NCBI RefSeq assembly: GCF_019649055.1
Contig: NW_026570308.1
Location: 372,001-436,000, forward strand
DNA: 64,000 nt
Origin: Paramacrobiotus metropolitanus
Lineage: Eukaryota > Tardigrada > Eutardigrada > Parachela > Macrobiotidae
Direction: 5' to 3'
Positions 14,612 through 62,323 of this stretch are shown here, piece after piece. How positions within the stretch are numbered: position 1 is the stretch's first letter; each line of letters starts with the position of its first letter. The position numbers and the translations under genes were made by a program. The notes beneath the pieces are model-generated. The model did no database searches and was not told the origin of the DNA. It worked only from the letters and a program-made list of their open reading frames with translations.

Positions 14612-15861
14612 TCACACTGAACGGCGAAAGCCCGCAATTTTAGCCTCGTTGGCATCCAGTTTCTTTCCACAGCAGCAACAATGTGCCTTATCCTGCTGAG
14701 CTACAACGCGCTCTCCGCGGTACAGCGCCAGTACATCGCGCAGAAATTCCCGGTACATCCACATCATGAAGAGCGACAAGAGCAGCAAGATACCCGGCAG
14801 CTGCAGCCGCACCGGAAGGAAGAAACCCACCACCGGAAACGGGAGCTTTGTCCAGCCGAAAAGGCGCAGGTGCATGGTCAAGTTGACGCACTGGAAACAG
14901 GCCCACATAGAGCAGACGCAAAAGTGTTTCTTGGACGTGGAATGCAGCGGCGACGGTTCCGCTGCCGGTAGCTCCTTGCGTTCGTTGGCTTCCACGTCAT
15001 TGTTCACCTGAGTTTCATCGAAATGCGGTTGAACAGCGCTGCGAAAGAAAACCGATTTTTAACCCAGGCAAAACGTTCGCCACAATTTTATTTGTTTTGC
15101 TGCGCTTATCATTTCTAGCACAGTATTTATTTTAAAACTGCAGAGTCATCACGTCGCAGTACGTAAAGCCAATCATTTTATAATATGACATTTATCGGCA
15201 AAAGCTCTTCAGATATAATTTGGTTACTATATATTAATCCTGGTTTTTTCATTATTTACATTTAGTGTGCCCTTTTGGAGCTTTCTGAAAGTTTATGGTC
15301 TACAGCCATTCAAAGAATTTTTGTAAAAGACATACTTCACGCATTCACAGTTTTCTAGAAAATAATTGATTTTTGCAACGTTCCTGCGAGAAACTGGATT
15401 GCAGTGGTTATTTTTTAAAAGCGATCACCCAAAAAGAATAAGGAAATTTCCGGCAAAGATGTCTTAACATTTCAAAAACAGAATATTTTTGCAATTTTAA
15501 CACTTTAGCACTTTGTTTAAGGTGGAGACCATGCTAAAGTTCCAGACCTCTCTATCTTCGATACACCACACAAAAGAAATAATGAAACACGCTTTTGTTT
15601 CGCTTGTCGTATCGTAAACAAAAAGCAGGTGCCTAGATAAAAACTTACGCATCCGAACCACCCCAGTAAAGTATCAAAGTCTTTCCGAGAGTCGGGATCG
15701 ACGCGGCTGTTCGCCCATTGCGGAAAGACACGAGTGCCCAGCTTTAGCGCAATGTGCAGTGAAAACCACAGCACAACCAGGGCTTCCGCTCTGATCTCCT
15801 GGTGAACCCACTCCCGATTGCGGTCAAGAAAATATCCGATCGTTTTTCGAACCCTGCCCAT
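14612..15861 (-). pseudogene. Tandem membrane protein family, copy 1 (exons A and E only)
   Basis: Exon A is 15861-15649: 213 nt, starts MGRVRKTIGYFLDRNREW, donor GTAAGT. Exon E is 15038-14612. Exons B, C and D are absent from the 610-base gap between them. Exon A ends in phase 0 while exon E enters after two codon bases, so joining them is out of frame and the copy is probably dead. Exon E has the family core (FCVCSMWACFQC, LPFPVVGFFLP, LQLPGILLLLSLF) and a C-terminal CCCCGKKLD cluster. It is nearly the same as exon E of copy 3, and its exon A and 5' flank are closest to copy 2. It reads as a remnant of an internally deleted or recombined duplicate. Confidence 0.72.
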
Positions 15862-17442
15862 TGCATTAGCCAAGTAAAAGTAGAGAAGCAATCCAGGTAA
15901 ACGTTTGTACAAGTGCCAGAAAATCTTTGAATATAGTGGTATTTTGTATCAGGTAAGTAAAAGCTCTCTGAGCCGCATCGATCAACAGAAATTTACTGCA
16001 GCGGGAAAACAACATCCCGTGTATTCAACGCCGTTCCAACTCCACCTTCATTGACGCACAAAACCCACTACCCATGCACGCTGCGCCCACACGTGAAATA
16101 GATCTTCCTCTAGGTTCTGTTCGTCGACCTGCAATCGCAGTTTACTATTCCTAATACAAAGTACTATCCGATGTTGCATAGGTGCCGATGTTGCATTTCT
16201 TTCTAAAGGTCGCGCTAGCATTAACACATGTTGTTTGTGTGTACGTTGTTAGACTTCCGTTGCGTGTGTTCAATGCACCAGTGTTACTGCGCTGAAATGT
16301 AGTTTATTTAATAAGTTCCTTTGGACTGCATAGAAAATTCCTTCGTTACAAATAATTATAGGAAAATAAATTCCGTGACGCTGAACTGAACTTTCTAACT
16401 TTACTTAAATATCACTGGCATATACTGTACAGAATATCTTGTCAAATTCAAAAACTGAGTTATTTTAAGTACCGGCAATGCAATACAGAGTGCGATAAAC
16501 GGTACTGCAGTCCGCAGAAGGCATCGATTTAGGTTGCTAATGCCGTATTTTTGACGCATTTCGTGCTGTGGTTGCATTATCGGATCCTGAGGCGCAGCTA
16601 ATCACTTCACCGTTCTCAATAAAGGAGGATACTATTGCTGGATACTCGCAGTCTCGCACTAATTACAAAATGTCCTTTCTGGCAGACATGCAGCGCATCC
16701 AATTGGGTTCCATGTTTCAAACTTAGGCAAAAAAGTGGTCGGCTCAAAGGGCTGGAAGCTTTTGCTCTTCCCTAACAGTGGTAAGAAAAACTAAAATCCC
16801 GAAGGAATAAGGAAGATTACAGGCAGAAAACGAATAAATGCCGAATAAAAACATAAAACGAATAAAGCCAACGAATACCGGGGTAATACGCGATAATACC
16901 AGGAATACGCAGCAATCGGTAGCGAAGAGTGATGGGTCGATTTTCTGGAGTGGTACGATCGAAACGAGCCATAGGTAACCTGTTCAGATTCGCTACATGA
17001 GATTCAATTATTATTTTCCTTCGGCTTACAAGCATCAAAATCACCGGTGTTAAAATCATAATTGTCAAATCAAAGCCTCTTTTGTCTGTAATTATCACTG
17101 TAGCAGTGTTAATAAACCGGTCCGATAAAACGAACGACGAAACTGATTATTAAAATTTGATTCCGGTATTATACACCATTTTGCCGCTAAAGTACGAGTA
17201 GAAGTTTACGACAAAGAATTGCAAATTAACTAGTCGGTTCCCGGTCCAAGAATTTGATAAATAATTCAATAAACAGCGTGCAACAGGCATACATTCAGTG
17301 CGCTGGCACCGGTTTCGACCGAGAAAAGCTTGTGTGCGGTATATATATGCGGTAAAACGAAACAGCTAATCTTTTGTTCTAAATTTTGCACGGTGACCAT
17401 ATATCTCCAGCAGAGCGTTCCGTTCTCGGTGCAGGAATGCTC
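15862..17442. other. Intergenic region between copies 1 and 2
   Basis: No supported gene. Positions about 15870-16180 are similar to 20760-21070 upstream of copy 2 (blocks such as cgatcaa.agaa, ctgcagcggaaa, cacacgt), i.e. a shared 5' flank. Confidence 0.45.
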
Positions 17443-20400
17443 TCAGTCGAAGGATCGCATGAATATGAAACAAGGATTTTGATCGTCTTGACCGGGCGGT
17501 GGAATCAGCGGTTGTTGTTCCTGGCCAATCTGGCGCACATCGACAACAAACTTCCAGATCATCCAAATTCCATAGATGGTAAGCAACAAGAGCAAAGCCC
17601 ACAGTTGTAACGGTTCCGGGACAAATAGTTGCACCAGTGGATAGGGAAGATTGGCCCAGCAGTGATATCGACGGTAATTAATTATCAGGATAGCCACTAA
17701 ACTAGCCCACACTGGGCAGCAACACCGAACGATGTTCGCCGGTTCGTCTATCGTGTTTTCCATGGTGATAGTTATGCTGGTATCGCCGGGCTGTGCATCA
17801 TCGACGAGGGATACCGTAGTAGGACAATCTTCTCCGACCGTTTCCCGTGACTGTTCGGATTGCTCTTGGCTATCCTCAGTTGGTAAATTATCAATAACGC
17901 TAAATTCAATAACGCTACTTGAAAAAAATAACTATGGCTATTTTGCCGCAGTCTGGCGATAAGGGTCTGAATAACCGGTCGGCTATAATTTGCCACGCAC
18001 ATCTACATCTACAATTTCTACATATGCAAGTTATATTATCACTAACTCGCACAATCTAATATTTTGCGTTAAACCCCAAAAATTTAATTCTGACAGTCTT
18101 GGGATTTCTTAGAATACTAAGAAATTAAATCTAAAAAAATCTCTGAAGTATCAGAATTCTTTTAAATCTCAGAAGCATGGTCCACTTTATTGTGGCAGCT
18201 GCGGCAAAATACCTGAAACCTCTTTTGCCAGTAAGATTGCGGCAGAACGAAACCATTATGGGTCCACCATATGGTTTGAGTTTTATATTATGCGTTAGCG
18301 AGGTCAGTATTTAACGTTTGTGGGCGCTACAAACCTGTTATGAATCCGACGAGCGCGCCAGCGCTTGTACAACCACTGAATACCCCAGATCAGCAAACAA
18401 AGGTACGGTGCCCACAAGATGCGGAACAGTACAGCGATCCACGCACGGAGAAAGATGTACATATCCGGAGAGAATGTAGAAGCAAACAGAGACGTCAGGG
18501 CAGGTTTACTGGTATTCCAGCGCGGATACCCTATATCCATCCAATGTGATAGCATTGCTTGGGGGAACTCTAGGCCCTGACAAATCCAAAGACAATATGC
18601 ATAGTGATAAAAAGCCGATTTGTATGCTACAGTAATATAAAATCTACGGTCTACGAGCACGAGTACTCATAACGACGATTCCTTACCGTTCCAGAATTGG
18701 GATAGCACCGCTTGTAACCGAAGGCATACCGTTCCCAGAACTCCGAGGCACGGACGCTTGAATTAGCCGAGGGAACTTCATCACTGATTGGTTCCACATT
18801 CGCCGTCACAGCCAAGCAGCATGTAAATACCACACACAACTTGAAATTCAGAGTGGGCATATTGAGCACCTTCCGCTCTTCTTTCTGTTCCTTCGGAGTT
18901 TTGGCTTGATTTTCGATATATGCCGCTGGGAGCGGGACACGTTTAACCGCTGAGGCTTCCAAAACCAAACCCAGAGCAAATATTCGCCTAAATACACGGA
19001 GATTGCTTTTTGCGATCCACCATTCGTGGTATTCTGGTTTACGAGTGCAGTATAATATGCTAAAATACATCTACATATGCGGTGCTGAAACTACGGGGTT
19101 GCTGCAGATTTCTGTTTTTTCTAGCATACAGTTTTGAACAAGAATGTATTTCTATGCATGCTGCGTCACTGTGCACAATATGACAATTCGCCATCAGACA
19201 TGCGACCTGTTCCGGTTAACTCTGTAGAACGCATATTGAACGTTCCAACCGATTTTACAGCTGATTAAGCGGACCTGAATGTGTTGTTAATGCAGCTGAA
19301 GTAGGTATCCTTCATCCACCATCCCCAAATTCGCCCGGTGCAGTATATACTCAAAAGGCAGATGGACAGAACACAACATGGAACTACGGCTTCACGACCC
19401 ACGGCTTGAACAATCAACCACACAGCAGTGACGGCCATCAAAATAACCGGCAGTGCCCACAACGCCAGCCAAAGGAAAAAGCAGGCAAAGATGAGAATTG
19501 TACCAATAACCAGATATGCCAGGAACCCGATTATAAATAAGCCCTTCACTAGTTTCGACTTTTTCAATGAATCTCTGCTCATTCTACGGACGATGAAAGC
19601 CCGGATCTGCTCACATTTGTGGATATGCTGCGTCCATACCGGATACCGCCAGTTTCGGTTGGCGAACAAGTAACAGCCAACGGAGATACTAAGGAGGACC
19701 GTGGCGCAGACAGCAGCGATAGTGCCAACATAGCCCACATGACCACGTATGTCGATACCGCTAGGCGCCGTAAAGGGCAAAGTATCGCTCTGGTTGGTGC
19801 TTTTGCGGCTAGACACCATCCATTCGGATGCGATCTCGTCCCACGCGCATCCATTTGTTTTCTGTCGAAAACAATACAGAGATTATTATTGAACAGCTAA
19901 GTGTAATGCTATCGCAGTACATACTCACAACAGTCTTACGGTTGCAGACATGAGTTTAAAACATCTACCGTTTATGTAAATCCATCCATGGCTCGTTTCG
20001 TACCACTAGAAAAACTCGACCCATTATTTTTCGATACGTATTCCTAATGTTCTCGCGCATTCCACCGGTATTCTTCCGTGTTCTGGCTGTATCTGTAACT
20101 TTCCGTATTCCTCCGGTGTTTTAGTTTTTGTCAACTCTTCCTTGGTCAAAATACCGGTGGAATAAAGACAGAACACGCAGGAATACTGGTACAATGCGCG
20201 GAAATGCAGGCGTGTTGCAAAGAGATATTTACCGGATGCGGAGAGAATAGAGGAGGTAGATAAGCGCAGAATACGCATGAATAATTGGTTGAATACGTGA
20301 GAGTGCAATGAATACGTATCGAAAAATGACGGGTCGAACTGTGGGAGTGTTCCAAAATCGTTTATATGTCCGGTAGATACTTTTTTTATAATTACAATAT

Positions 20401-20752
20401 ATTATGTATCGTAAAAACGCTAACAAGATAAACTGATTTAACAATTTTTATTTAAAATAAAAATTTTATTAATTATTTTGTTTTGTGCTTTGCCATCATT
20501 TGCCTTAATGGACAGAAACCTCCTCAGGCGAGTACTCACCCATCCAAACCGGCGCAGTAGTTTATCAAAATCGGTCTGAGAGTCGGGATCGATGCGGGTG
20601 TTCCGCCATTCCGGAAAAACACGCGTGCCCAACTTCAACGTTATGTGCAAGGAGAACCAGAGTACCACCAGGGCTTCCGCTATGATCTCCTGGTACGCCC
20701 AGGCCCAGTTGCGGTCGAGAAAATATCCGATTGTGTTTCTTACTTTACCCAT
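17443..20752 (-). CDS. Tandem membrane protein family, copy 2 (five exons, intact, 599 aa)
   Basis: Exons are A 20752-20540, B 19861-19275, C 18987-18687, D 18576-18335 and E 17899-17443. They total 1800 nt and join without a stop. All introns are GT-AG with phases 0, 2, 0 and 2. By eye the protein has a short hydrophobic helix in A (EALVVLWFSLHITLKLG), about four membrane segments in B, one in C after a basic lysine/arginine run, two in D and two in E. Family marks include YQEI in A, CTGRIWG near the end of B and PYPLVQLFVP in E. This copy is divergent: D is short (242 nt), and E has an acidic N-terminal part and ends QEQQPLIPPPGQ. Likely a plasma-membrane or endomembrane protein; function unknown. 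Confidence 0.78.
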
Positions 20753-23700: not shown

Positions 23701-23850
23701 GTGGAGTAGCGCGTATAGTTCCAGTAATTTTTTAGCTTTGTTATGTGCAGCAAGGAGAAGCTGAAGGGATCCAAAGTCGGCCGAATCAAAATTACGCCGG
23801 TGGGGTAACCATGATAAACATGTCCCCTTTCCTGAACACCTACAGCCTTT
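20753..23850. other. Intergenic region between copies 2 and 3
   Basis: About 3.1 kb without a supported gene. 20760-21070 matches the 5' flank of copy 1. 21655-22130 contains blocks shared with 3715-3830. Small frames at 21854-22066 and 22935-23210 have no family support. 23525-23850 matches the 3' flank of copy 1. Confidence 0.4.
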
Positions 23851-26686
23851 TCACACTGCACGGTGGAAACCCGCCGTTTTAGCCTCGTTGTCGTCCAGTT
23901 TCTTTCCACAGCAGCAACACTGTGCTCGTTCCGGCTGAGTATTGCCGCGCTGTTCGCGGTACAACGCCACTACTTCGCGCAGGAACTCCCGGTAGATCCA
24001 CAACATGAAGAGGGACAAGAGCAGCAGGATACCCGGTAGTTGCAGCCGTTCGGGAAGGAAGAAACCCACCACCGGAAACGGGAGCCTCGTCCAGCCGAAA
24101 AGGCGCAGGTGCATGGTCAAGTTGACGCACTGAAAATTGGCCCACATGGAGCAGACGCAAAGGGTTTGTTGGACGTGGAATGCAGAGACGATGATTCCGC
24201 TGCCAGCGGCTCCTTGCGTTCGTTGGCTTCCACGTCATTGTTCACCAGGGCTCCATCGAAATGCGGTTGAACAGCGCTAAGACAGGAAACCGTTATTAAT
24301 CTAGGATTTTCCGCCAGTTGTGCAGATAAGACTTTTTTTTATTTTATTTATTCTGCTGCGCTTATGATTTCTACCCAATAGATGCGTTACCGGCCGGTTG
24401 ATGTGTGACGATTCTCAGTTGTACCACGGGAGTGTCGCGAGGCAAAGCAGCACTTGTAGCACAGGTAAACGATAAAAAACAATGCGATCCCAGAGAACCC
24501 TACGATGTCGACGATCCAAATCAGCGTCAACGGTAAAGCGCCAAGGAACGCCACCAGTCCGGTCCAGGCCATAAAAACCCAGCCCACGACGGGCGAGAGG
24601 GAGGGTGCGAACCCCGCCAGCAGCGCGGCGTTACTGGAATTAGCGTGCAACTGATCGTACGCCAAATCTGTCCAGTACGAAAGCATGGCTCCGCTTTGAC
24701 TCAGTCCCTGCAAACAAAGACTATATTACCTTATAGAGAACGTAAAGGTCATCTGTAATAAGGTCGTTGTCAAAAGTCATTTTTTATTTTTATTGCATCC
24801 GTAAAAGGTTGAAATTCATCTTAATTACGTCGGAGAAGCGTTACGATCGTGGTGCCGTAAAAACATAAATTAAATAAAAAGAGAGAAACGTTAAATACCG
24901 TATGTAGTTGTGGAGAATGTAAACAAATTAAGAGAGCCAAATATGATTGCCAGAGCAGTTGATACTCACGTACCGATCCCCCATTCGTGCAGCACCCGGT
25001 GCAGTTGACCAGTGTCCAATAGCTCCAGTTGCCAGAATCGGAGCCACTGAAGGCGCTCAACACGTAATTCGCCTGTGGGAATTTCGCTAGCAGCAAATCG
25101 GCATTGTTCTGCACTGCCGTACAGCCATAGGTCAGCATCAACGTGCTAACAAAGCAAGCAAGCAGGCGACGCTTCCATATTTCGTCAATCGGGGCATCTG
25201 GATTTCGCTCCATAGTGTCCGGTAGACAGTCCGGAATCGGGGTTTTCGTAAACAGTTCCATGCCGCAGTAACGCCTCAAAAAAGTAAAAAATGCACAATA
25301 CAATTTAACTTTACCATTAGAAACATTGAACTTCAACAATTAACTGACCTGATTTTCTTATTTACCCATGCCAGATAACATCCAGTCATCCATAATCCCC
25401 AAATCCTTCCGGTGCAGTGCAAGGCCAGCAAGATCACCAGAATCACGCAGCAGGGAAAAACAGCGCCTTCGCCCACTATTTGTGCTACCGCAAAGAAAAC
25501 TAACGCCGCAATACTAACCACCGGCAGCGCGCAGAGAACGAGCCACACCCAAATGAAACACATAAAGTTGGCAGCTAGCAGGACCAGGTGCAAGCCAACA
25601 AAAAGCCATCGCGATGCCTGAGGTTCTACAATGTTTTCGAAATACCCCCGGCTGTTCTTGTTGTAGCAGAAGAACGCCGTGATATGTCCACAGCAGCGGA
25701 GATGGTACTGCCATGTGGGTGCTTGCCAGCGTCGGTTGATGAAGAGCGAACAACCCAGCGACATACCCAAGATGGCCGTGACACATACCGTGGCGAAGGT
25801 GGCAACATAGGCAAAAATAGCTTTCAGTTGGTTGGGCGATGAGGAAGTGGAAGGAGTGTCCAAGATTATGAGACCCTTGGGTGATGTCCAGGGAGCCATG
25901 ATACTATCCCAAATGCAACCGTCCATTTCCTAATTAATCGCATAACAAGTTTGCATTCATACAGTAATTATCGCGCAGTGCGTTGAATGTTCATTTATTT
26001 ATTTCTTACGTAATAAACTTTTCAATCATTTTGTTATCGATACTTCCAAATTCCTCACATTTAATAGAACCGCTTCTGCTGCATGGTTCTTAGTAGAAGC
26101 ACTGGACATTACCAGCCCTCTGAAGTGCGGTGAATTGAACAGCGGCTGCTAACTTCACGTTTGTCAGTAATTACAAATATAAACTACCGATAAAGTCAGT
26201 AATTGCATTTCAAGCATTACTTTGATCTGAACAAACATTCTTAAAATCGAAGGTATTCACATATACGGGGGTAAAAATGTTTAGCGGAGACAATTACTTT
26301 GAGTATTTTTCTTGCTGATAAAGCCAAATGTTTACGGACCTTCGAAGTTTAAAGAACTTTCGAACTTCGACGTCAGTTACCCTGTTAATATCTTTCCCGA
26401 AATATTTAAATAATTTTTCACACGTTTTTGAAGTTTACTGGAAGCCCCAGCTAACGCGACAAATACTTACATATCCAAAGTTTTCCAGAAGCCAATCTAG
26501 ACGGCTCTTTGCATCCGGGTCGACGCGGCTGTTGCCCCACTCGGGAAAGACCCGATTACCAAACTTTACAGAGACCTGACAGGCAATAAACAGCACAACC
26601 AGGGCTTCCGTTATAATCTCCTGATGCGCCCAGTCACGGTTCTGGAGACGGTGGCGTAAGGTTTTCGGAACCTTCTTCTTAAACAT
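23851..26686 (-). CDS. Tandem membrane protein family, copy 3 (five exons, one frame break)
   Basis: Exons are A 26686-26471 (216 nt, MFKKKVPKTLRHRL), B 25929-25349, C 25274-24974, D 24707-24391 and E 24276-23851. Intron phases are 0, 2, 0 and 2. The total is 1841 nt, one short of a multiple of three. The missing base is in exon E near 24160, where copy 1 has four T and this copy three, before the GCGTCTGCTCC block. With that base the frame would run about 613 residues. Exon C has a basic run, a membrane segment (LLACFVSTLMLTYGCTAV), the family FPQxxYxLS motif and NWSYW with a possible glycosylation site. Exon E ends with the CCCCGKKLD cluster seen in copy 1. The break may be sequencing error or recent inactivation. 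Confidence 0.72.
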
Positions 26687-27963: not shown

Positions 27964-30900
27964 TTAGCTTGCTGAAAACTTCATACAAGGGCCTTCACAG
28001 TAGCGCCCAGTGCGATCTTTCATAACGAGCCAGGATCCCGCGCATTTCTTCCTGACATCACCTTTCTCCTTTTTCTCCTGATTCCCACCGTTTGCACGTT
28101 TCTCCGCGGCTTCATCAGCCTTCTCTTCTCTCGAATTCCACCACAAAACGCTGATCAACTCCCAATAATTCCACAGCATGTAGGCCGTCAGCAATAGCAG
28201 TAAACCAGGCAGCTGCAGCCGCTCCGGCAAGAAGAATCCCACAATGGGAAAGGGCAGACAGAGCCAGCATAACATCTGTCGTGTCAGGCTGATGGCGGCG
28301 CATTGAAGGGACGCCCACGTCGAGCAAACGCAGAACGGCGGGCAAGCGCTCATCGCGGTACAATCAATCGCAGTAAAAGCAGCTGCACCCTTTTTCGATG
28401 TACGATCCTTCGACGCCTCCAGCACCATCCGCTCGGCAGTGATATTGCTCTGCTGTTCGTCAGCATCGCACTGTGACGCCGGATGATTCGTTCCCGTCGT
28501 GTCGGTGATTGATAACTGGGAGTCTACAACGCCAGAAGAGACACGATCGTCGCTACCCGTAGCTTCGTTACAGCAGCCTGTGATTCCGACATGGAAAAAT
28601 TCTTCTCCGCACTCCTTGCAAATATAATCAGGCTGGTCGGGTGCACCGCTAGCCCGCCTTAAATGGTCTGCCTCAAAGTCGAACCAATGGCCGTAACTGC
28701 AAACGGCCAATGCATTGTACCAAAATCATACAGTACAGCGCGCTTTCCAGACAACTGAGTCACGGTGAGCAGAAAAATTCATAGGTTTGTCTTACATTAT
28801 GTACCGGTTATAGATACGCCCAAAGATTCTTGCAACAACCCAGAAATATTGCATTCATACCGTCGGCACTTGCTTCGGCTTTTTCCGTACCAGACGCGGT
28901 AAAAAACGGCCACCAGAAATCGAGAGACATAGCGCCACACGACGATTGCCAGGACTACGGTGACACCAATCAGTCCGATGGCGATGAGTCCGCCTAAGAC
29001 TATTACTTCCAGTAAACCCAACAGTATGGGTGGCATGCCGCTAATTAGCAGTAACAAGAAGCACCATAACATAAAGAGCCACTCCACCACCGGCGAAAAT
29101 GACGGTGAAAAACTAGCCAACAGCTCAGTGTTAATACTAGCGTTCGATGTGTTCTGTCCATCATAGGTGAAATTTACCCAGTACGATAGCATTGCTTGGG
29201 TCTCCGTAAAGCGCTGCAATAATTTGCCCATTTATCAAGACCATTCTAGCTGCTTTTCATTCTTAAATCTCAACCGTGGCAATGTCACCATAGCAATGTC
29301 GTATCATGCAGAATATATCCTTTAAGATACCTATATTAATTTCGGTTCAAATATCGTTTTAGCGATATCACCGTACATACATTTAACCAAATCAGTTACT
29401 AAATCTTTTATTTTTGTCAAAGCATCTTAACTGCTCGTATGTATGAAGGCCATGTATGTATATCGTGTACGGTACTAAGAAAACTCTGCAGTCTGCGGTT
29501 CATAACGTGATTGAAAAACCATTTCCTAACAGACTTTTGCTTCTCTAGTCAAAAATTTGTACCGTTTTCGGACTGGGTAGACAGGACTCTGTGTCATTGT
29601 GTCCCATTAGTGTCCCATTGGTCCAGTTAGCAGCCGGAGCGTGTAGGGTGGTGCTATTGATTAGTGTGCTAAAAATGTCGTCAGGCAACGCGAACTGCGG
29701 ACTGGGCGTATTGCTGATAACAGCGCTGCAGGCCAAAGCGACCACGAAAGCAGTGTAGGAAAGGAAACATCCACGCCGTGCTCGCTTCTCCTTTCGTGGC
29801 ATGTCGTTTGTCGTCTGCATGGCTCCCAACAGCCTGTGAGGCATGGACTGTTTCGTGCGAAAATCGCTCTGAAGCTTGTCTTTGCTGAACGCGCTACAAA
29901 GAAGATTACACCAGACGTCCAAAAAAGGGAAAGTAATCAGTCCGTCGATAAAATACACTTTATGCAGTAACAGCTATATGGTAGCCAATTGTACTATTCT
30001 CAACTTAACAAAAGACCAAGCAACTTTGGGATATATGTTTGTCGATATTTCTACCGAATGTCATTGCGAAAAAAGCGCAAACATGCTATCGAGTCTTTGC
30101 GCTGGACCTTCCATTAGTACTTACCGGGTTTCATTTCGTATCCGTGTCGAATAGCATTCCGGCATCCAGACTCCCCAGATTCGTCCGGTACAGTGAACAC
30201 TCAGAACGCATACGAACAGCACCCAACACGGGAACGTCGCTTCCTCTCCCAGGTTGTTAATGGTGACCAGTACCAGCATTCGCGATACCGAAACTACAGG
30301 CAGAGCGCATACAGCCAGCCACACCCAGACAAAGCAGGCAAAATTGGCTCCCAACAGGACTAAGTGGAGCAGTAAAAAGACAATCCGCGGAACGTTTGGG
30401 TCTTTATAATCGGCCCAGTAGTCTTGCCGGTTCTTGTCGTAGCCGAAGAACGCTGTGATGCGCTGGCAGCACGGGAGATGCTGGGTGAATCGCGGGAATC
30501 GCCAGTGACGGTTGACGAAGAGGGACAGCCCGACGGACACACCCAAGATAGCCGTTGTGCAGATAGCAGCGAAGGTTGCCACGTAGCCGACAACAGCACG
30601 AGTTGTACTGGTGACGACGCCTGTGGTCTCATCAGATGCGGTTGTTATGGGAGCGGACTGTTTCCAGGTAGAAACCATGCTGTCCCAGACGCATCCATTT
30701 TCTCCCTGAACAATAACAACCAGCAAAATTTTCCGCTATGTCATTTTACCTATTCTAATTCGTAACACTGTACTGGCGTGTTACGAATTAGCAAGATTTG
30801 AATTAGATTTCCAGATAACTATAAAAAATTTAAAGCATGGGTGAATGTCATCTTTGTGAATAAAAATATCGACATATTTATTGTTTATGCTCACATTAAC

Positions 30901-31107
30901 GAGACGCAGAAGATTCTTTCCCGTTTCCGACATTCTGCTAGGATCAACGCGTGTTGTTCGCCATTGCGGATAGATTCGGGTACCCAACTTGGCAGAGATT
31001 TCGCAAGCAATCCACAGAACAACCAGGGCTTCCACCATAATTTCCTGATATGCCCATTTGCGGTTATTATCCAGACGTTGTCTAAGAGTTCTACGATATT
31101 TCCTCAT
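27964..31107 (-). CDS. Tandem membrane protein family, copy 4 (five exons, intact, 736 aa)
   Basis: Exons are A 31107-30895, B 30705-30125, C 29893-29563, D 29213-28861 and E 28696-27964; total 2211 nt, in frame. I chose the ATG of MRKYRRTL at 31107 over one three codons upstream because it gives the 213-nt exon A shared by paralogues. B (residues about 72-265) has GYVATFAAICTTAILGVSVG, a long double hydrophobic stretch (IVFLLLHLVLLGANF onward) and CTGRIWGVW. C has an RRARRG run, one membrane segment and several N-x-S/T sites (NST, NWT, NGT, NDT), placing that loop outside. D has SPVVEWLFMLW and a following hydrophobic pair. E opens with YGHWFDFEADHLRRA and a CKECGEEFF pair, then FCVCSTWASLQC, PFPIVGFFLPERLQLPG and a highly charged tail. 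Cytosolic CxxC zinc binding is inferred. Function unknown. Confidence 0.82.
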
Positions 31108-31165
31108 TTTAACCAACGCGGTTATAGCGCGATGAACCTTTTTAAACTTGCAGTTATCACATCGA

Positions 31166-35200: not shown

Positions 35201-35570
35201 GAGATTTTTTCGAATCAGCATCCGCGTCAGATGAGCAGTAACATCAGCAAATTATCACAGCAAAACCCGACACTAAGCTAAGCTATATGAATTATCACAG
35301 CAAAACCCAACACTAAGCTATATGAATGAGAATTATCAATATGATAATCATACTCACATGTACGAAGTACAGCAAACTCAAGCCCGATAACGAGAACTTG
35401 CTGGGATCGACACGGGTTGCTTGCCACTCCGTGTAAATGCACGTCCCCAGTTTAACTGAAATTTCACAGGCAATCCACAGGACAACCAGAGCTTCTATCA
35501 CAATTTCTTGATAAGCCCACGAGCGATTCTTATCGAGGCGTTGTCTTAATGTTTTCCGATATTTTGCCAT
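32235..35570 (-). pseudogene. Tandem membrane protein family, copy 5 (exon C lost, exon B frameshifted)
   Basis: Exon A 35570-35358 (213 nt) and exon E 32910-32235 are well formed. Exon B 35108-34527 is 582 nt instead of 581. Alignment to copy 4 places one extra base near 35020, after which the frame changes. Only about 155 bases separate exon B from the family-like part of D (ending 34028, donor GTATGC), so exon C is gone. The start of D (the SYW..LAYD region) is also missing. The D-E intron is long, about 1.1 kb, and holds a minisatellite at 33125-33262. Exon E has the YGHWFD-type module in the form NGHWFDPEADDLRRA with CFECGEEYY, closest to copy 4. With one exon deleted and a frame break, this copy is best read as a pseudogene. 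Confidence 0.78.
33125..33262. repeat. Short-period AT/CAA minisatellite
   Basis: Imperfect tandem units of about 10-12 bases with the motif attgcaacaatattggaaca lie inside the D-E intron of copy 5. The period drifts, giving repeated ggaacaa and gcagcaac blocks. Confidence 0.7.
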
Positions 35571-39700: not shown

Positions 39701-39996
39701 GTATTTCAAAGAAACGCGTGTTCAAAAGCACCCAAATTTGAATTTATAAAAACACATACGTTATTCAACAATCTAATTCTTACGATTATGGCATACGAAA
39801 CGCCATGAACAAAACCAGTCAGTATGTTGGGATCGACGCGGGTTGTTTGCCATTCAGGAAAAATACGTGTTCCCAGTTTAGCAGAGATTTGACAGCTAAT
39901 CCAGAGAACGACAAGGGCTTCCACCATAATTTCTTGATAAACCCACGCATGGTCCTTATCAAGGCGCTTTCTTAACGTTCTTCGGTGCTTCTCCAT
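36703..39996 (-). CDS. Tandem membrane protein family, copy 6 (six exons, intact, 702 aa)
   Basis: Exons are A 39996-39784, B 39572-39022, C 38658-38337, D 38127-37778, E1 37701-37506 and E2 37179-36703; total 2109 nt, in frame. Unlike its paralogues the terminal exon is split by an extra phase 0 intron (donor GTAAGT after 37506, acceptor before 37179). E1 encodes a cysteine module with CSKC and later CVCLGCGADF, which fits a small zinc ribbon. E2 has PPFCVCSLWATVHY, MPYSVVGFFLPERVQLPG and a Lys/Glu-rich tail. Exon C has a GRKGRNGR basic run, a membrane segment and the FPQVNHLLS form of the family motif, then a WDYW block. B is 30 nt shorter than in copies 4 and 8. The model assumes E1 and E2 belong together; phases support this. 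Confidence 0.78.
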
Positions 39997-44600: not shown

Positions 44601-44914
44601 TATTAATTTTCGATATTAAAGAGCTTTTTCGGAAGAACAATGCAATCAAGCATTTAGCAATTTTTGGTTTTAAAGAGCTGCCATTAGTTTACAATGCTCA
44701 CATTCAAAATGCCCAAAATGATACCATCTGACAAAGTCAATCGGCTGGGATCGACGCGCGTTGTTTTCCATTCCGGATAAATCCGCGTTCCGAGTTTAAC
44801 AGAGATTTGGCAGCCAAACCACAAGACAACGAGGGCTTCTAATATAATTTCCTGGTATACCCATGCACGGTTCTTATCCAAGCACTGTTTGAACGTCCTC
44901 CTATATTTTCCCAT
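41695..44914 (-). pseudogene. Tandem membrane protein family, copy 7 (exon C missing)
   Basis: Exons are A 44914-44702, B 44052-43472, D 42900-42548 and E 42313-41695, all with family splice sites and good coding quality. No exon C was found between 43471 and 42901. Without it B (phase 2 exit) joins D (phase 0 entry) out of frame, and the sum of 1766 nt is not divisible by three. The gap instead holds an inverted-repeat element at about 43057-43290. Exon D reads SYWTDLAYDELR, SPVVDWIFMVWTGILVVL, and a second hydrophobic block. Exon E begins with FRDYDTMENG, then FCVCSLWANVQC and FFLPERLQLPGLLWLL. Either exon C was lost with the insertion, or an unrecognised replacement exon restores the frame. 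Confidence 0.72.
43057..43290. repeat. Foldback (inverted repeat) element in copy 7 intron
   Basis: The left side (ctttcactttcgcacactcc, caaacacctttttgc) and right side (gcgagaaggtgcttgg, aagtgcgcgaaagt) are imperfect reverse complements. The centre holds a perfect 30-bp palindrome at 43209-43238 (half TCTATAGCCAAATGA) and a smaller one near 43180. The arms resemble those of the foldback at 50955-53024, so they may be one family. It sits where exon C is expected. Confidence 0.65.
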
Positions 44915-46192: not shown

Positions 46193-46328
46193 CTTCAGGG
46201 CGGATTGTACAATTTAGAACTAATTAAGTGGCGGCGTTATTTAATCAGGGCTGACTCAGCCTGACTGCTTTTCACTTTGGCTTTGCGGCGAAAAACGGTC
46301 ACATAAGCATCGTTCAGTATTTCATGCC

Positions 46329-48784
46329 ATGTTTTCTACAGCATTACGGTATTGTACTGGACAGTGCGTAATAATAGAGAGGCTGTGGAAGAAAAGATCG
46401 GGCGATGAAACACTTAGGAAAGCCGTAAACGCAAAGTTACAGGATGGGGATATAAGTGGCGCTGTAAAAGTTTTAACATCCGACGATTCTGTTGCAACGG
46501 TTTCGGATGAAGTCCTGGCGTCGCTTAAAGAAAAGCACCCTAATCCCCCTCCTGATATGAATTTCCCCTCGGCGCCTCCTGGTGGTACTCCCCCCGAGTT
46601 CTCATCGGAAGAAATCAACACCGCGCTGAAATCGTTCCCTGCTGGCTCTTCAGCCGGCCCCGACGGCCTGCGGGCGCAGCACTTGAAGGAACTTATTAAA
46701 GTCCCTGGAGAATGTGGTGAACTGCTCCTGACAGCCCTTACCAAGCTAGTAAATCACATCGTGTTCAAACCCATTCCCGACAGCATCCGTACGGTACTCT
46801 TTGGAGCCACGTTCATCCCATTGAATAAGAAAACGGGTGGAATTCGGCCCATAGCGATTGGGTGCACCATCAGGCGTCTTTGTGGCAAGCTGATTAGCAG
46901 ACGCGTGCAGTCAGAAATGGGGAGTTTGTTTCGTCCCGTGCAGCTGGGCTACGGAACTCAAGGCGGAGCTGAAGCAGCTGTACACGCAACCCGGAAGTTT
47001 CTGCGAGCTCACCCAGCCAGCCCCACTGTTTTGTTGAAGCTTGATTTTCGAAACGCTTTCAACACTATTCGGCGCGATATCGTTCTGGAGGAAGCAGCTG
47101 ATAAATTACCGAAATACTTTCACTTCATTCCTCAGTGTTACAGGGATTCCTCCACATTATTCTGCGACGAAACGACTATGCTGTCTGCCCACGGAGTGCA
47201 GCAGGGCGATCCTCTTGGTCCGTTGCTGTTTTGCCTCGCCTCCAACAAGCTGTCGAAAAGTCTCCAGTCCGATCTCAACGCATGGTATCTGGACGATGGG
47301 ACGGCTGGAGGAGACCCAGAAGTGGTTCTGGAGGATTTTATTAGAGTTTGTGATGATGCGCCAAAAATTGGTTTAGAGATTAACTTTGCAAAGTGCGAGT
47401 TGTATATTTATGGCGGGACTGAAGCGGAGCAGCAAGACATCTATGACCGATTTACCGTCGTCGCACCTGGAATTCAAAGGATGACTCCAGAGACGCTGGA
47501 ACTGCTTGGTGCTCCTCTTACGGACTGGTCAATCGGCCGCTGCTTGGACGGCAAAATTGACCAAATCAAAAAACTGACAGACTCACTGAGCGTCTTGCCG
47601 GCGCAGCAGGCGCTATTCCTCCTTAGAAACAGTCTATCGCTCCCAAGGCTTATGTATACGCTAAGAGCGGCCCCTTGCAACAAATATCCGGAGAAGCTAA
47701 AAGATTTCGACCACGTGATTAGGTCGAAAGCGGAAGAGATTACGAATGTTAATATGGATGAATGCACATACGGGCAAGCTACTCTGCCGGTCCAGTGTGG
47801 GGGCTTGGGACTGCCTAAAGCCGAAGAAATCGCAACGCCGGCCTATCTCTCCTCGCTATATTCGACCGACAAATTAGTACGCACTATTGTGCCTGAAGAT
47901 TGCCCCGATGATCGGTCTGACGTTGAGTTATACTGGCAGGAACGTACAGGAAAGGGTGCACCTGCGTTAGAAGACCGGAGTAACCAACGCTTGTGGTCGG
48001 ATATGCTGACTGCCGGGAAACTGGACGCCTTAATGGAGAGTGCCAACGTTATTGCATCTGCTCGTCTGTTGGCTGTCTCCACTAAGAATGCCAGTGCCTG
48101 GTTGCTTGCGCTACCGGTTGCTAGCCTTGGCACATTGCTGGACGATGCCGGTCTGCGGATCGCTGTTTCTTTGCGGATGGGTGCACCAGTATGCAAGGAG
48201 CATAAATGCCGTTGTGGGGAAATGGTTGACGCGTTTGGCTTACATGGCCTGTCGTGCATAAGAAGTCAAGGAAGGTTCAGGCGGCACGCCAGTCTGAACA
48301 GTGTAATCCAACGGAGTCTGGGTTCAGCAAAGGTGCCGACAATCTTGGAACCGCCCGGACTGAGCAGATTAGATGGGAAACGGCCGGATGGCTTATCACT
48401 CTTTCCTTGGAAAATGGCCTTCCTCTGATTTGGGATGTGACGGTTGTTGACACGTTCGCTACGTCGTATGTAGCCAGTTCATCAGAAGCCGCGGGATCTG
48501 CAGCTGATGACGCGGAAACACGAAAAAGAAACCTTTACTCGGAACTGACTGATCGACACTTTTTCGAACCAATCGCCCTCGAAACGATGGGAAGTTGCGG
48601 CGGTAGTACCCGTCATTTCATCAGCGAAGTTGGCCGACGCATTAAAGAGCAAACAGGAGAAGCGCGCGCCACCGAATTTTTGTGGCAACGTCTAAGTGTG
48701 GAAATTCAGCGCGGGAACGCTGCTTCTGTTCTGGGAACGGTTGGGTGTTCTAAACAGCTTGAAGAATTGTTCTTTTTGTTCTAA
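46329..48784 (+). CDS. Reverse transcriptase with C-terminal zinc finger and restriction-like endonuclease
   Basis: The first frame (699 codons to 48428) has RT motifs: SAGPDGLRAQHL near residue 115, KLDFRNAFNTI near 237, GVQQGDPLGPLLF near 295 and YLDD near 320. At residues about 620-645 a Cys/His finger reads CRCGEMVDAFGLHGLSC, followed by GRFRRH, EPPGLSRLDG and KRPDG. The endonuclease core continues in another frame (to 48784) with LIWDVTVVDTFATSY and a terminal IQRGNAASVLGTVG block, as in many invertebrate retroelements of this type. The frame change is near 48410 in a run of four A and fits one missing base. The enzyme would nick target DNA and copy its own RNA into it. Exact clade (R2-, NeSL- or CRE-like) is not assigned. 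Confidence 0.85.
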
Positions 48785-53640: not shown

Positions 53641-56600
53641 CTACTCGAGCGGGTTAATGATGATGATGCGAGTCACGGGATCCGGTTGGGTGATGTTTGT
53701 ATCAGAAAATGTCGTTGACAATGGTAGGCAGGATATCGGAGTGATTTTCGCTACACCATCTTCCACGCAGTTGTCACAGTCTTCGGCTATCTCCTTAATT
53801 TTCTCTCCTTTCGCCATTTCCTTCCGTTTCTGTTCTTCTTCGTGTTTTTCGGCGGCATCATCGATGCGTTTTTCTTTGCGCAGCTGTAGCAAAATGCGAA
53901 TCATTTCACCATAATTCCACAGTAAATATGCCGTCAGGAACAATAGCAGTCCGGGGAGTTGTAAGCGTTCCGGTAGGAAAAACGCAACAACGGGAAAGGG
54001 CAGAATCACACCGGCAATGTTCTGACGCAGGAGTATGATAGTGGCGCATTGTAGGTTGGCCCATAACGAGCACATGCAGAAGGGTTTTCGGATTATTTGT
54101 GCACTTTTCTGTGCATAGTCTCTCTTTTTGTCTGAGGCCAGCAGCGCTGCCTGTTGTTGGGCGCAGCATGCCTGGGACTCGTCAGAGTCGACCTCGCCCA
54201 GGGAACAACCTACGTACTTGTCATTTTCCGACGGTTTAAAAGGAGTCTTTTCGATGAAATCTTGATTAGTGTGTTTGCAGTAGCAAGTACCAACACCACC
54301 GTCGTCCATGGAACCATCTCGATTTTCCGGGCCCATCTCACCACTTTCCACAGCGTCATAGTAATGGATATGGCTAAGAAAAATAACATCCGCTTACAGC
54401 TAATTAAAATTTTAGTGACCTGGACTTTGCTGGACTGGACAGCTACTACTCACCGGCTAATGGTAAGCGTTAATGTCCGTGTATTTTTGTGTTTTCAGTC
54501 TCATGCAAAAAACTTTTTTGTTAAAAAGTTGCGTAGGTAACAAAATTTTAATCGTGACCCGACGCACACCATAAAAAGTGGTTTTTTAGCGGTATTTTTA
54601 CTGTACACAGCGCAAGTACAAGTATGTGCAAGCTCAAGTACAAGTATGAGTACAACTGCATGTATAATATTCTGTGTACAATTTGTACGTATCTATATTG
54701 TGCGTGTATCGCACACGTGGCTGTAGGCTCTGTAAAGTGAGTGTAAACCGAGCTTTGGCTTTGAATATACAACATAATACAACTGCGGGTGTGCGTGCTA
54801 CTTTACAGTAGGCAATGACATTACAAAAATGTCATTTAGTTCCTGCGTGATGATTACTTAATTAATACTATTACAGCGTACGAGTACAGTTACCCTTATT
54901 ACTTACGTTACGCTCTCCATCCGACTTCTTCTTTGGTGAAAAATTGACTTGATAACGGCAGACACGACAGTATAGAGGAAGTTCAGGACGGTAAGCACAA
55001 GGATGACCCCGACGAGTACCAGAATAACCGCTATAACCACGCCTATGATTAAGGCCTCCATCGTCAGCAGTAAAGTAACTGGTGCATCGCTCAGCACGAC
55101 CAGTATTCCGGTCCACACCATAGATATCCAATGCACCAGGGGAGACAACGATGAGGCGAACCCCATCAGAAGGATGGATTTGCTAGAAGTGGAGTCCCGC
55201 AGTTCATCGTACGCAAGATCCGTCCAATACGACATCATCGCTAGGTTTTGCGCGAAACCCTGTCATAATCAGAGGTCCGCCTGAATTTCATCTCAGAAAT
55301 GTTCCTGCCAATTATCTTTAATATTATTAAACTCATTATCCATTGCTGAGAATTTGCTTTGCAAGTGTTACCTCAGCCACTATAATGACATCGCATGATA
55401 ATTCTTAATTGTAAGACTACTTGTGCAAACAGTTTGCATTTGCATTGAGTTCCCTCAGTTTATGCTAAACATAAGAGTGTTATAAAACAGCCCAGATTTT
55501 TGTTATTAAATTAAAATCTATAGAAGTTCGGTACTTCTTGGTTTATCCATTTTGTTTCTTCGAAATTTGTAAGGGAAGTTTCTTGAACAAGATCGAAGTC
55601 TTTCTGGACGCTTCGTTTTTAAGGACATTTTAACGGGGTTATGATCTCGTACAACTAAACTGGGAAACTTATTTAGAAATTCGAATTGGTATATGTATAA
55701 TCAACGTTGGCTTCGGTTGTGATTAGGGAGACACTAAAATCTGGCACCGGTATTGCTTACTGTTTGCGGACTGGGTCTGCACTGTTCCACCGTCCGATTG
55801 ACCCTGGTCCAGTACGTCCAGTTTGTTGGTGCGCCTTCTGTCCCGCTTGACCCACTGCTTGTCAGCGCATCGCTCACTGTACTAACTAGGTAGTCAATTT
55901 GTGGAAACATCATGAACAAGGGGCGTCGCACATTCCCATCAACAATCGCGCAAGCAAAGAGGAACACGAACATACTGTACTGTAGCAAGTGTCCACGCCG
56001 TGCGCGCCGTTCTTTTATAGGCATATCCTTCTCCATGGGGTGCGGCGATCCGCTTAGAACTACCGGGTGTGCAGCGAGCTTGGTTCCGTCCCTCCATCCA
56101 ATAGCACTTAAAAGCATAACAAAAAGAAAAACTTCAGCATTTTCTCTTTACATGTACTGTATTGTTCTGTTTGTACTTATAAGTTGCTGCAGTTGCAAGT
56201 GTTCGGCACTTCATTTTGTTTACGCTGATATAATTTAAATGCCGTTGTCGCTGGTTGAAGGACGGTGGCGCGATGTTTTTAGCAACAGCTCATAGGTCCA
56301 GATCTACTTGACGCATTACGCACTTAAAATTCTATGTACCCGAATTTCTTTCGTAACCACGTCGAATAACACTCCGTCATCCACACTCCCCAGATGCGGC
56401 CAGTGCAGTGTACACCCAGCAGACAAATAAACAGTACACTGCAGGGAAACACGGCATCCTCACCGGCGAATCTGATAACTACTGCGACCAATATCGACGC
56501 CGCCGTAACAACAGGCAGAGCGCAGACGATGCACCACACCCAGACAAAGCATAACGTATTGACGACCGCCAAGACCAAGTGCAGCAGCACGAAAATGATC

Positions 56601-57617
56601 CGTGAAGCGTTGGGGTCTTTATAATCCGCCCAGTAATACTGCCGGTTCTTATCGTAGCGGAAGAACGCCGTGATGCGTTGGCAGTAGGGGAGATGCTGTT
56701 TGAATTGTGGGAAATTCCAGCGACGGTTAACGAAAAGAGACAAACCGACGGATACGCTCACGATGGCCGTTGTGCAGACTGCAGCGAAGGTGGCCACGTA
56801 GCCGACAACGGCACGCCCTGTATTGTTTGTTACGGCCACGTTTTCGTTACCCGTTGCGATTACTGGAGGAGTCGGTTTCCAGCTGGCAACCATGCTGTCC
56901 CAGAAGCAGCCGTTTTGTCCCTAACCAATCATTAATATTTACAATTCGTGCCAGCGGCTTTCCTCGTAAATAAAATGTATGTACTATCATTACTATGTAT
57001 ATCTATACAATTGTGCAGTGTGATGCTGATGCTTTTAATTCGGTAGCAGCTCATGCGTAATCAAAAAAATCATTAAATAGACAGATCACCGATGTGTGTA
57101 CAGTACATCACCAGGTACGAAAATACGTTATAAGATGTGTCTACATCAAAAATACAGTATTACATATGTGTTGTACATCACCAGATCTACTGCAATTTTC
57201 TTTACTTTTGCGATCTACTACCAATTTTGCTGTTTGTAATAGTTTTAATATCCGTTTAAGGTTTGGCTTAAACTATCAGTGAATGCAGCAGCATTAAGCT
57301 CGACGAAACTAAAAATTTTTCGGAAGAATAATTATAATAAAACATTTAATGCGAACTTGGGTAATCCTCCCCTGCAAAGAGCTGTTAGAAGTTACAACAC
57401 TTACGTTCAGAACGCTTAAAAGGACATTGTCCGAAGTAGTCAACCGGCTGGGATCGAGGCGCGTTGCTTTCCATTCTGGATAAATTCGCGTCCCGAGTTT
57501 AACGGAGATGTGGCAGCTAAACCAGAGAATAACGAGGGCTTCCACTATAATTTCCTGGTACGCCCAAGCACGGTTCTTATCCAAGCACTGCCTGAACATC
57601 TTCCGATATTTCCTCAT
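53641..57617 (-). CDS. Tandem membrane protein family, copy 8 (five exons, intact, 741 aa)
   Basis: Exons are A 57617-57405, B 56920-56340, C 56106-55761, D 55259-54907 and E 54373-53641; total 2226 nt, in frame, phases 0, 2, 0, 2. B has GYVATFAAVCTTAIVSVSVG, a cytosolic-looking segment with RITAFFRYDKNRQYYWADY, a hydrophobic pair, and CTGRIWGVWMTECYS. C (residues about 265-380) has an ERRARRG run, one membrane segment, MFPQIDYLVS, and NWTYW with NRT nearby, so glycosylation sites face outward. D has SYWTDLAYDELRDS and SPLVHWISMVWTGILVVLS. E begins HIHYYDAVESGEMG, then PFCMCSLWANLQC, LPFPVVAFFLPERLQLPG and a charged tail with EEEQKRKEMAKGEK. It is closest to copy 7, so copy 7 probably had a similar exon C. 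Biochemical function cannot be named. Confidence 0.83.
54600..54665. repeat. Short caagtacaagtatg repeat
   Basis: Imperfect units of caagtacaagtatgtg lie in the D-E intron of copy 8. Confidence 0.5.
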
Positions 57618-57672
57618 TGTGGAGGTTTAACGAATCTTGGAGAACGTTCTCAGAATACAGTAAACAGAGGGG

Positions 57673-57690
57673 TCTAATTTAGATTAGAGC
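57673..57690 (-). promoter_or_regulatory. Conserved upstream near-palindrome, copy 8
   Basis: TCTAATTTAGATTAGAGC begins 56 bases upstream of the start codon at 57617. One base off a perfect 16-bp palindrome. Confidence 0.45.
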
Positions 57691-58934: not shown

Positions 58935-61900
58935 TTACAGTGCGTTCCTATCGATAGTAATAACAATCCGGTCTTTTTCCCATTCCCACAGCTCACACGG
59001 ACTTTGGACCGCCTTCACGGCTCCTTTTGGCAGGCCAATCGTCTCCACACTCAACTGCTTTCCACTGCCCCCGTGACCACTGATATGCAGAGTGATCTTC
59101 TTCCCAGCACCGTCGGTACTGGGCTGGTATGTCACATCCAGTGTATTTTCTTCCACCGGCATCTTCGTCTCCTTAATCAAATGCACAAAGATCCACAGGA
59201 GATAGATAGTCAGCAGAACCAACATGCCCGGTAACTGGAGCTTTTCTCCCATGAAAAACTGCGTAGCTGGAAAGGAAGCCAGACCCAGCACATCATTTGG
59301 CGCATAAACACTAGGACATGGCGTGCAACGCTGCAGCGCTGACAGGAAGGCTGACTGCCGGCGGGAACGAGTGGAAGGGAACCTTGACCTTTATTTTCCG
59401 CATCGCTTTTGATTTCCGGAGGTTGGCTTATGGCGGTATATGGCGGCGGATCGCCAGTCGTACCGTGCTCCTGACTATACCCCTTTTCGGTTTCCCAGAA
59501 TCTGGAATTCAAAAAAAGACTTGGGTCTTTATTTGAAGATACCACTGGACCGCTGGGTGTTGTAGTAAATTCACGGTTTTTGCTGATACAGTCCATTTCT
59601 TTAACGCTTAAGGTTAAGGGCGTATTTCATAAATGCAGCGGCTGAAGTACAGCAGCATATATTCATTGGCATAATTTTATTATTATATTCTATTAGAAAA
59701 TTAAATGCTCCGGCTTCGTCTTAGCGCTTATTCGACGAACAAAATATGCTGCTATTTTTTAACCCAGTCCCAGTGCATACGATTTACGCGTGTATAGATG
59801 TGTTACTTGTTGCGAAACTTGAACGATTTTATGAATAACTTTTAAACCGCGACCCGACTGCCTACAGAGTAGCTTGTATTTTCCAGTTTTTCATAATAGC
59901 GTATCTGTAGCACGGTTACAGCACGGTAAACTGCTACAGCCACCGCTGAGTACCGCTGCGGTAAAAGTTTCCTCCCATTATTTTATACCTGGTTGCCAGG
60001 AGCAGTTCGATGTATTTAGGACCATAGAAGAGCATCCAACCAACCACACCAAATACGGAGAGCACCATGGCGAGTAACGGAGTCATGCTGCCGATCATAA
60101 TGAACACGGTCCAGATTTGGAACACCAAGGACGCTCCCCAACTCGATGATGCCGGATAATTTACGAGAAGAATGCCCCGTTTCCGGGCAAAGGGCAATAA
60201 GGGCATGTCCTCCCAGTACGACCACATGGCACCGCTATAGCCTAAACCCTGCACCCAAAAGTTGTTGAGCTAGTTTAACATTCCAAGGGACCGAATGCCG
60301 GCTTACAGTGGCAGTAATACCCGTAGCGGAGCAGGCGCTACCATTTCCACTTATCCAGTATGCCCAGGTGGGCAGACCCAGTTCGCCGTGGCCGCAAAGG
60401 TGTGCGATCCCACGAAGACGTGATATATGTTCCAAGCTACCGCGATGCAGCTAATGAACATCCGGACAACCGCTGCATACGACGTTTCATCGGTGCTGGC
60501 GGTGGCCGGTCGAAAATTTCCCATCGGGAATCAAGAGGCTGGTTTCCGGTATTGAAGTCTTCGTAAACGATTGATATGAGCTTCTCTTTCTGCTGAGTGA
60601 GTTTTAGTGAAGCGCAAATTTATTTTAACCGAAGTTCCGCATACCATCTTTACAATGCACTTATACCTTCGGCAAATTGTGCGACCATCGCCGCACCACC
60701 GTACAAACAGTACGGTACATACGAGTAGATACAGTAAGTGCCGCCAACTAACTCTGTGTATCAGACTTCAATATCTCGAGTTTTTACATTTCATCATCTA
60801 TGGTTACCTGTTTTGCTGGCTGTCCCATGAAAATGCCTCGGTGGAAGTTTTGATGATTATCTATGCGGATCTAAGCTTTTTTACTCAGTTTTAATTTTCA
60901 GAAATAAAAAATAATGTGATGGTGCGACCCAGGCAATGGCGGTATGCGGAAGTTCGGAACCAAGTATGTGGAACATTTACGGAATTATTTTGTTTGAATT
61001 TAGGAAGCTACGAATTTAAGCAGCGATTGCACAGCTATTCTAATTCCTTAGTGTTTTTTAGATTATTTTAGGAATTGGAACATAATAAATATTTGGGCTG
61101 GTGTAAGTGATCAAAGCAACAGGAAGACAATGAAGGTCTGGTGGTCATTTGGTTACTCGGATCGATTGCCCGTTAATGTTTACGTGTTACCTGATTTTTC
61201 TGCATAACCAGTCGGAGTATGTCTGATCCATCCACAATCCCCAAATTCTTCCGGTACAGTGCAAGGCTAAGAAGCAGGTTAGAAAAACACAGCACGGGTA
61301 CACAGCCTGCACGCCCATGACACCGATCGACACCGCAGCCACCACGCCCATGGCAGAAACCACTACCAGCACATAAGCAACTGTCCACAACAGCAAAATA
61401 CCGATGGAGACGATCCAACCCATCAGCATAACCAACAGGACCAGCATGAACTGAGCACGCCAGATGCTTGGCCAACAAGTACTGGCATGTGGCTGGAGCC
61501 ATTTGGCGTAACCGAGGAGGGACAAGTAATTCAAGCTACCGTGCCAAAAAGGTATAACGTCATGTTTTGGGTTCGGAGGTGGTTTCCAATGGAGATTAAA
61601 CAGTAGACACACGGCCACCGATACTCCCAAAAGGGCGGTGGCGCACACGGTGGCTATGGCGCCGGCGTACGCGAACAGTGAGTAGGGCGAGTGCGTCGAA
61701 TTTAAGCCGATTGATGTTGTATGGGAACCGGCTGCGTTGAGGGCCGAGGTTTCCATCCATATGGCAACAATATCATCCCACGCGCATCCGCTCATTTTCT
61801 GAACACAGCACATCACGAAATTTTTCTTTATTATTTTTTAAAAAATCGCGGAACAGAGGCGGTTATAAATGTATTTTTGTTAGCTACAATTAGGACTCTA

Positions 61901-62323
61901 AAATGGGTTTATCAGTTATTTTAATATATAAGCGTCTAGCCAAGTTTGACTTCTGTTACTAAAGAAAAAATCAAGAGGATTTATTCAGCATCAATTCCAA
62001 ACTTATATCACTTCTTTTACTTGTAGTATTGGAAACTTATAAAATAGAATGAATGGTAGAACAGTGCTGTCAGTGCCTGACAAATACGGTTGGTTAGAAT
62101 AGTGCCTTACGATTCCGATTAGATCCAATAGCCAATCCAAACCGGCATGCACGCTAGGATCGACACGACTCGTTTGCCAATCCGGAAGGACTCGCAAGCC
62201 GAATTTGAACGAAATCTGGATGGCGAACCACAGCACCACGATGGCTTCCATCAGAATCTCTTGGTACGCCCAAGTACCAATCTTAAAATGGGCCAACGGA
62301 AAGCCTTTCGTTGCGGCTTCCAT
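58935..62323 (-). CDS. Tandem membrane protein family, copy 9 (five exons, divergent, frame breaks)
   Basis: Exons are A 62323-62111 (213 nt, MEAATKGFPLAHFKIG), B 61798-61191, C 60589-60307, D 60248-59989 and E 59606-58935, all with family phases. Exon C keeps its overall phase, but its membrane segment (YAAVVRMFISCIAVAWNIYH) lies in another frame between about 60500 and 60375. This implies two compensating small indels. Exon E changes frame near 59270, where a CC on the coding strand fits a missing C inside the LPFP..FF motif. Exon E has DPPPYTAIS, a PPxY motif that in other proteins binds WW domains, and an unusual C-terminal tail (KKITLHISGHGGSG) not seen in the others. B is longer (608 nt) and glycine/alanine-rich. 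Whether it is a functional divergent gene depends on the indels. Confidence 0.68.

Follow-up and report, generated by a model that had tools for sequence, protein, structure and literature searches.

A large tandem family of predicted polytopic membrane proteins in the tardigrade Paramacrobiotus metropolitanus

What do the repeated genes in this part of the genome of Paramacrobiotus metropolitanus encode, and are they working genes or relics? The window, by which we mean the whole stretch of DNA analysed (64,000 nucleotides, C88:372001-436000, in an assembly of 169.8 Mb), carries on its minus strand nine head-to-tail units made up of exons A to E or remnants thereof. Exon A corresponds to a repeat family (D5) of nine copies, spaced 4.4-4.9 kb from start to start in six of the eight intervals. 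The conserved exon-B motif claimed in a preliminary description of the locus was borne out by eight window matches, every one of them on the minus strand, as against none in each of 100 shuffles. Given these shuffles and the identity of one copy to a RefSeq protein (below), chance or artefact as the source of the array was rejected. The preliminary description also had nine five-exon copies sharing splice phases 0-2-0-2. The nine minus-strand units stand, but tblastn searches with exon peptides recovered all five exons only in copies 2, 4, 6, 7 and 8; exon C was not recognised in copies 1, 3 and 5, which have A, B, D and E, and copy 9 yielded A and E, with B, C and D not found. The phases likewise apply not to all nine but to copies 2, 6 and 8 and one of two models of copy 4. 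Its four intact copies of 599-741 residues were correctly called: spliced models of copies 2, 4, 6 and 8 encode 741, 659 or 690 (according to how D and E are joined), 736 and 599 amino acids, respectively, and the other five of the nine (copies 1, 3, 5, 7 and 9) are incomplete or out of frame.

The units differ widely in their state of preservation. Copy 1 (58938..62323, minus strand, as are all copies; A 62323-62111, B 61798-61191, D ~60248-60024, E ~59382-58938) is divergent and degenerate, with exon E in broken frames and an unrecognisable exon C. The product of copy 2 (53641..57617; A 57617-57405, B 56920-56340, C 56106-55761, D 55259-54907, E 54373-53641) is 91% identical to RefSeq P0001 over 100% of its length. 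Copy 3 (41698..44914; A 44914-44702, B 44052-~43471, D 42900-42548, E 42313-41698), whose remaining exons are open, may contain an exon C too divergent to detect. Copy 4 (36706..39996; A 39996-39760, B 39572-39022, C 38646-38337, D 38127-37751, E 37207-36706) reaches its greater length through a sixth small exon. Copy 5 (32238..35570; A 35570-35358, B 35108-34485, D ~34336-34028, E 32910-32238) is pseudogene-like, with a frame change within exon B, whereas copy 6 (27967..31107; A 31107-30895, B 30705-30125, C 29893-29563, D 29213-28861, E 28696-27967) reads through. Copy 7 (23854..26686; A 26686-26471, B 25929-25349, C 25274-24974, D 24707-24391) has a frame shift where the E core begins, and RefSeq P0003 (524 aa) ends there, at 24120. 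Copy 8 (17446..20752; A 20752-20540, B 19861-19275, C 18987-18687, D 18576-18335, E 17899-17446) is followed by the remnant copy 9 (14615..15861; A 15861-15645, E 14932-14615), in which an exon A of copy-8 type is joined to an exon E of copy-7 type. This mosaic of two subfamilies is likely to be the product of unequal exchange or deletion. Single CxxCG motifs, seen by eye in the predicted inner D-E linker of copies 4, 5 and 6, are possibly halves of a zinc knuckle.

Do the five exons form one gene? The spliced model of copy 6 is RefSeq P0002 (LOC129596296, 'uncharacterized') letter for letter, and the model of a locus elsewhere in the genome, L036, is exactly P0009, so the exon joins of both agree with NCBI annotation. 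As that annotation joins all five exons in P0002 and P0009, the possibility that they are separate genes appears disfavoured, a judgement made from sequence and gene models. The full family anatomy, namely exons A to E, phases 0-2-0-2 and a conserved core of W, C, G and R residues, was found in copies 2, 6 and 8 and in L036.

Mobile elements also lie in this region. An open frame of 727 codons (46245..48425, plus strand) between copies 2 and 3 encodes a reverse transcriptase (RVT_1, 6.6e-20) and belongs to a mobile element, not to the family. An LTR-retrotransposon-like element with protease and integrase domains, Ty3/gypsy by eye, occupies window positions 3921-12929 on the minus strand; its direct repeats show no difference in the 300 bases compared (100% identity), and its insertion is therefore probably recent. 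Window positions ~600-5500, also on the minus strand, hold a multi-exon gene that by eye resembles a von Willebrand A / CLCA-type protein, with no Pfam match in the four ORF pieces scanned. Retroelements in and beside the array, together with five incomplete or out-of-frame units, raise the question of whether it is mostly decaying or transposon-borne sequence without function. We regard this as highly improbable: long open exons are joined over four introns with conserved splice phases, dN/dS lies at 0.26-0.44 and the same exon anatomy recurs on other contigs.

The array is one part of a much larger family. Searches with consensus exons A and B combined gave ~123 loci on 20 contigs, or 117 without contig C365 (exon B, 139 matches in 110 loci; exon A, 106 matches in 104 loci), counts that are lower bounds and include some fragments or pseudogenes. 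The window's own contig, C88, carries 33 of these loci, C9 21, C57 20, C98 seven, and C93 and C365 six each, with others elsewhere, and they run in tandem arrays that are mostly single-strand. Five coding exons and about 570-740 amino acids are typical of family members, to which belong 20 full or partial RefSeq proteins, all from P. metropolitanus and all 'uncharacterized'. Among automatic models of 20 loci elsewhere, 13 begin with phases 0-2-0 and seven do not; as the linker cannot be aligned, such models are unreliable at the D-E join. A RefSeq counterpart was available for seven models: besides the identical L036, five had a likeness of 0.94-0.98, and L038 was 0.69 alike to P0011 (312 aa). 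In a midpoint-rooted tree of exons A and B from 38 sequences, its clades given without support values, copies 2 to 7 form one clade with copy 1 apart, and copy 8 groups in another with copies from C19, C283 and C88.

Contig C365 offers a second view of the same region. Six of the seven pieces of it that were compared with the window are collinear with the stretch from the upstream flank of copy 1 to copy 6, at 88-98% including introns and flanks; the seventh, L027, had no match in the window. Consensus searches found no exon A or B between the C365 equivalents of copies 2 and 5, so copies 3 and 4 are missing from C365. Parts of PMC8277472 indicate that the P. metropolitanus assembly retained heterozygous variants and name a haplotype merger in the reference list, and C365 is therefore probably the other haplotype of the array region, although it may instead be a separate duplicate array.

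To what, then, is the protein related? Judged by sequence comparison, the family itself seems unlike anything in the collections searched. Profile scans of 1, 13 and 20 members (some scanned twice) gave no convincing Pfam match. The weak ones (TMEM9 0.003, DUF1295 0.004, DUF6011 0.009, TadE 0.015, DUF2567 0.015, DUF4834 0.03 and DAG1 0.07) each occurred in one or two members only and were treated as chance. G-protein-coupled receptor models (7tm_1 and related) and major facilitator superfamily models had no Pfam match among the members scanned, and 7tm_7 and 7tm_6 were matched by 0 of 13 and 0 of 20 members at E<=1. NCBIfam gave nothing convincing in five members (best E 0.43, in one), PDB sequences no match below E 0.1 and Rfam none at the gathering threshold; the protein has no internal repeat. 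Against a collection of 5.8 billion proteins, a consensus A+B query produced 5,878 candidates, all of which were scored, and 20 matches; no relative outside P. metropolitanus was found at E<=10 by this search, which needs shared 5-residue words in a collection that may not include the Hypsibius and Ramazzottius proteomes. Queries with copy 2 and A1 each returned at least two proteins. No publication on the family was found, and the parts of PMC11191345, PMC5531438 and PMC8277472 examined do not mention it.

Structure prediction gave a usable model. For one member, AlphaFold2 returned a pLDDT of 76 and a pTM of 0.78, and neither Foldseek nor VIA found a significant PDB fold match for this model. 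All 26 Foldseek matches had E values of 2 or worse and comprised transporters of several folds plus single entries for FZD6, CRTH2 and adenylyl cyclase; the VIA matches listed were mostly MFS-type transporters, below that tool's own noise level. No gustatory or odorant receptor (GR/OR) or innexin entry is named among the 26 Foldseek matches and 50 of the 135 VIA matches, which excludes nothing. A membrane transporter or channel family for solutes, osmolytes or xenobiotics, expanded for varied substrates or desiccation tolerance, is a reading that we hold to be unlikely. The profile searches and structure prediction proposed in the preliminary description thus leave its statement that no known family is recognisable in place for Pfam, NCBIfam, PDB sequences, the 5.8-billion-protein collection and, for one model, PDB folds.

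Its description of a polytopic membrane protein is likewise backed by the structural model, charge bias and sequon bias. The predicted topology has the N-terminus inside, about eight spans and one short helix, and the C-terminus inside. Loops were assigned from the helices and the positive-inside rule in 38 sequences, a set that includes damaged or partial models. Lysine and arginine make up 14.1% of predicted inner and 5.7% of predicted outer segments, a contrast that is not independent because charge was used in the assignment. Glycosylation sequons, which were not so used, number 0.51 per 100 residues inside and 1.43 outside, compared with 0.43 and 0.71 expected from composition (Fisher P 4e-8 over the 38 sequences, a value that is too small because related sequences are not independent). 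The predicted extracellular domain at 325-413 has 2.04 per 100 residues. The 18 sequons (1.05 per 100) in the loop at 245-293, called inside, speak against that placement. For the two ends to be consistent, one helix within 175-244 must not cross fully; the candidate is helix 204-220 (P0009 numbering), which may be re-entrant; the residues that flank it, P204, G221 and P227, are each shared by 80% or more of the 38 sequences.

How the family evolves bears on what it might do. The dN/dS between paralogues, another check proposed at the outset, was calculated by the Nei-Gojobori method for 10 pairs, with several dS values saturated, some copies damaged and some models automatic, and came to 0.26-0.44 overall. 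By exon, it was 0.06-0.25 in A (8 finite values), 0.20-0.40 in B (10), 0.24-0.71 in C (7), 0.22-0.73 in D (8) and 0.28-0.46 in E (10); a value of 0.58 for exon C of copy 5 was left out because copy 5 has no exon C. Every exon yielding a value is thus below 1, with C and D high, and mean top-residue frequency is 0.53 in A, 0.50 in B, 0.25 in C, 0.39 in D and 0.35 in E. The pattern is one of purifying selection that is relaxed in the outer domain, and no proof of diversifying selection. The inner linker also evolves fast, so rapid change is not confined to the outer parts. The earlier suggestion of selection for diversity therefore survives in part: exon C is the most relaxed outer part, but no exon exceeds 1.

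A variable outer domain rich in glycosylation sequons, tandem arrays, the copy-number difference between C88 and C365 and the mosaic copy 9 would all accord with a family that duplication has diversified for self/non-self or pathogen recognition at the body surface or in the gut. Yet Pfam scans of members revealed no recognised immune domain, no exon-level dN/dS is above 1 and it is the membrane core that is most conserved, rather than a signalling tail, which together make this distinctly unlikely in our estimation. Lineage restriction and fast change also fit gamete proteins, and a sex-biased, fast-evolving reproductive or gamete-surface family has some appeal in a gonochoristic species in which 1,724 transcripts show a male bias above 10-fold and 29 scaffolds carry male-enriched genomic bins, according to parts of PMC11191345. 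The family could not be linked to the male-enriched bins, however, and no DC-STAMP or other gamete-fusion Pfam match appeared among the members scanned; we consider this explanation improbable.

The size of the family, its tandem turnover, polytopy and variable outer domain are best fitted by an environmental receptor family, and we tentatively favour, as a possibility, a lineage-specific set of putative receptors or receptor-channels that respond to a variety of external cues at the cell surface. The single fast-evolving extracellular domain would come from exon C plus the beginning of exon D; with it and the adjoining outer loops, each paralogue at the plasma membrane could bind a different cue, the signal then passing through the conserved core of exons A and B. 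Such a mode would resemble that of insect gustatory receptors or nematode chemoreceptors, achieved by other folds. The repertoire would turn over by duplication with decay, as suggested by the four intact copies among nine in the window, the mosaic copy 9 and the lack of copies 3 and 4 on C365. Membrane-protein families are known to expand within single lineages; this one, with more than 100 loci and neither a relative in the collections searched nor a publication found, could represent a new class of receptor or a surface system that would be no less unexpected. It can be tested directly, since it offers intact members, a structural model good enough to use and gene models consistent with RefSeq.

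A bolder form of the receptor reading, which we find doubtful, is that these are a new superfamily of roughly eight-span, N-in/C-in receptor-channels of a fold not represented in the PDB, forming the largest chemoreceptor family of the lineage and having arisen apart from GR/OR and GPCR chemoreceptors. Across the genome, 7tm_7, the family of gustatory receptors, has 36 matches (32 over the curated cut-off, 30 in open frames of 335-449 aa), all outside the clusters of the orphan family, and the iGluR ligand-binding domain has 37 exon matches. Other candidate chemoreceptors thus exist, which weakens the idea that the family supplies a missing one. The 7tm_7 matches, on contigs C29, C10, C38, C36, C70, C54, C72 and others, are in themselves a gustatory-receptor-like set in a tardigrade; no publication on tardigrade chemoreceptors was found in the literature on tardigrade taste, olfaction and chemosensation.

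Set against known systems, the family differs from the major facilitator superfamily, whose members have twelve spans in two related six-span halves, in its fewer predicted helices and in showing no internal repeat, no sequence match and Foldseek E values of 2 or worse. With the arthropod GR/OR families (7tm_7, 7tm_6) it shares large tandem sets of polytopic membrane proteins and a predicted cytosolic N-terminus, and GRs likewise show fast birth and death with dN/dS below 1. Typical chemoreceptors are shorter than this protein with its long variable inner linker, a point against the receptor reading, and its five coding exons and ~570-740 aa contrast with the 335-449-aa frames of most 7tm_7 matches. 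GR/OR proteins have seven spans and the C-terminus outside, whereas the model and charge bias favour, as a prediction, about eight spans and a C-terminus inside. Nematode serpentine (SR) chemoreceptors differ too, in that the orphan family has no Pfam GPCR match and a predicted architecture of about eight spans, a cytosolic C-terminus and a long inner linker, but they are themselves a lineage-specific expansion of clustered, multi-exon membrane receptors, and in being lineage-specific, clustered and multi-exon the tardigrade proteins are like them.
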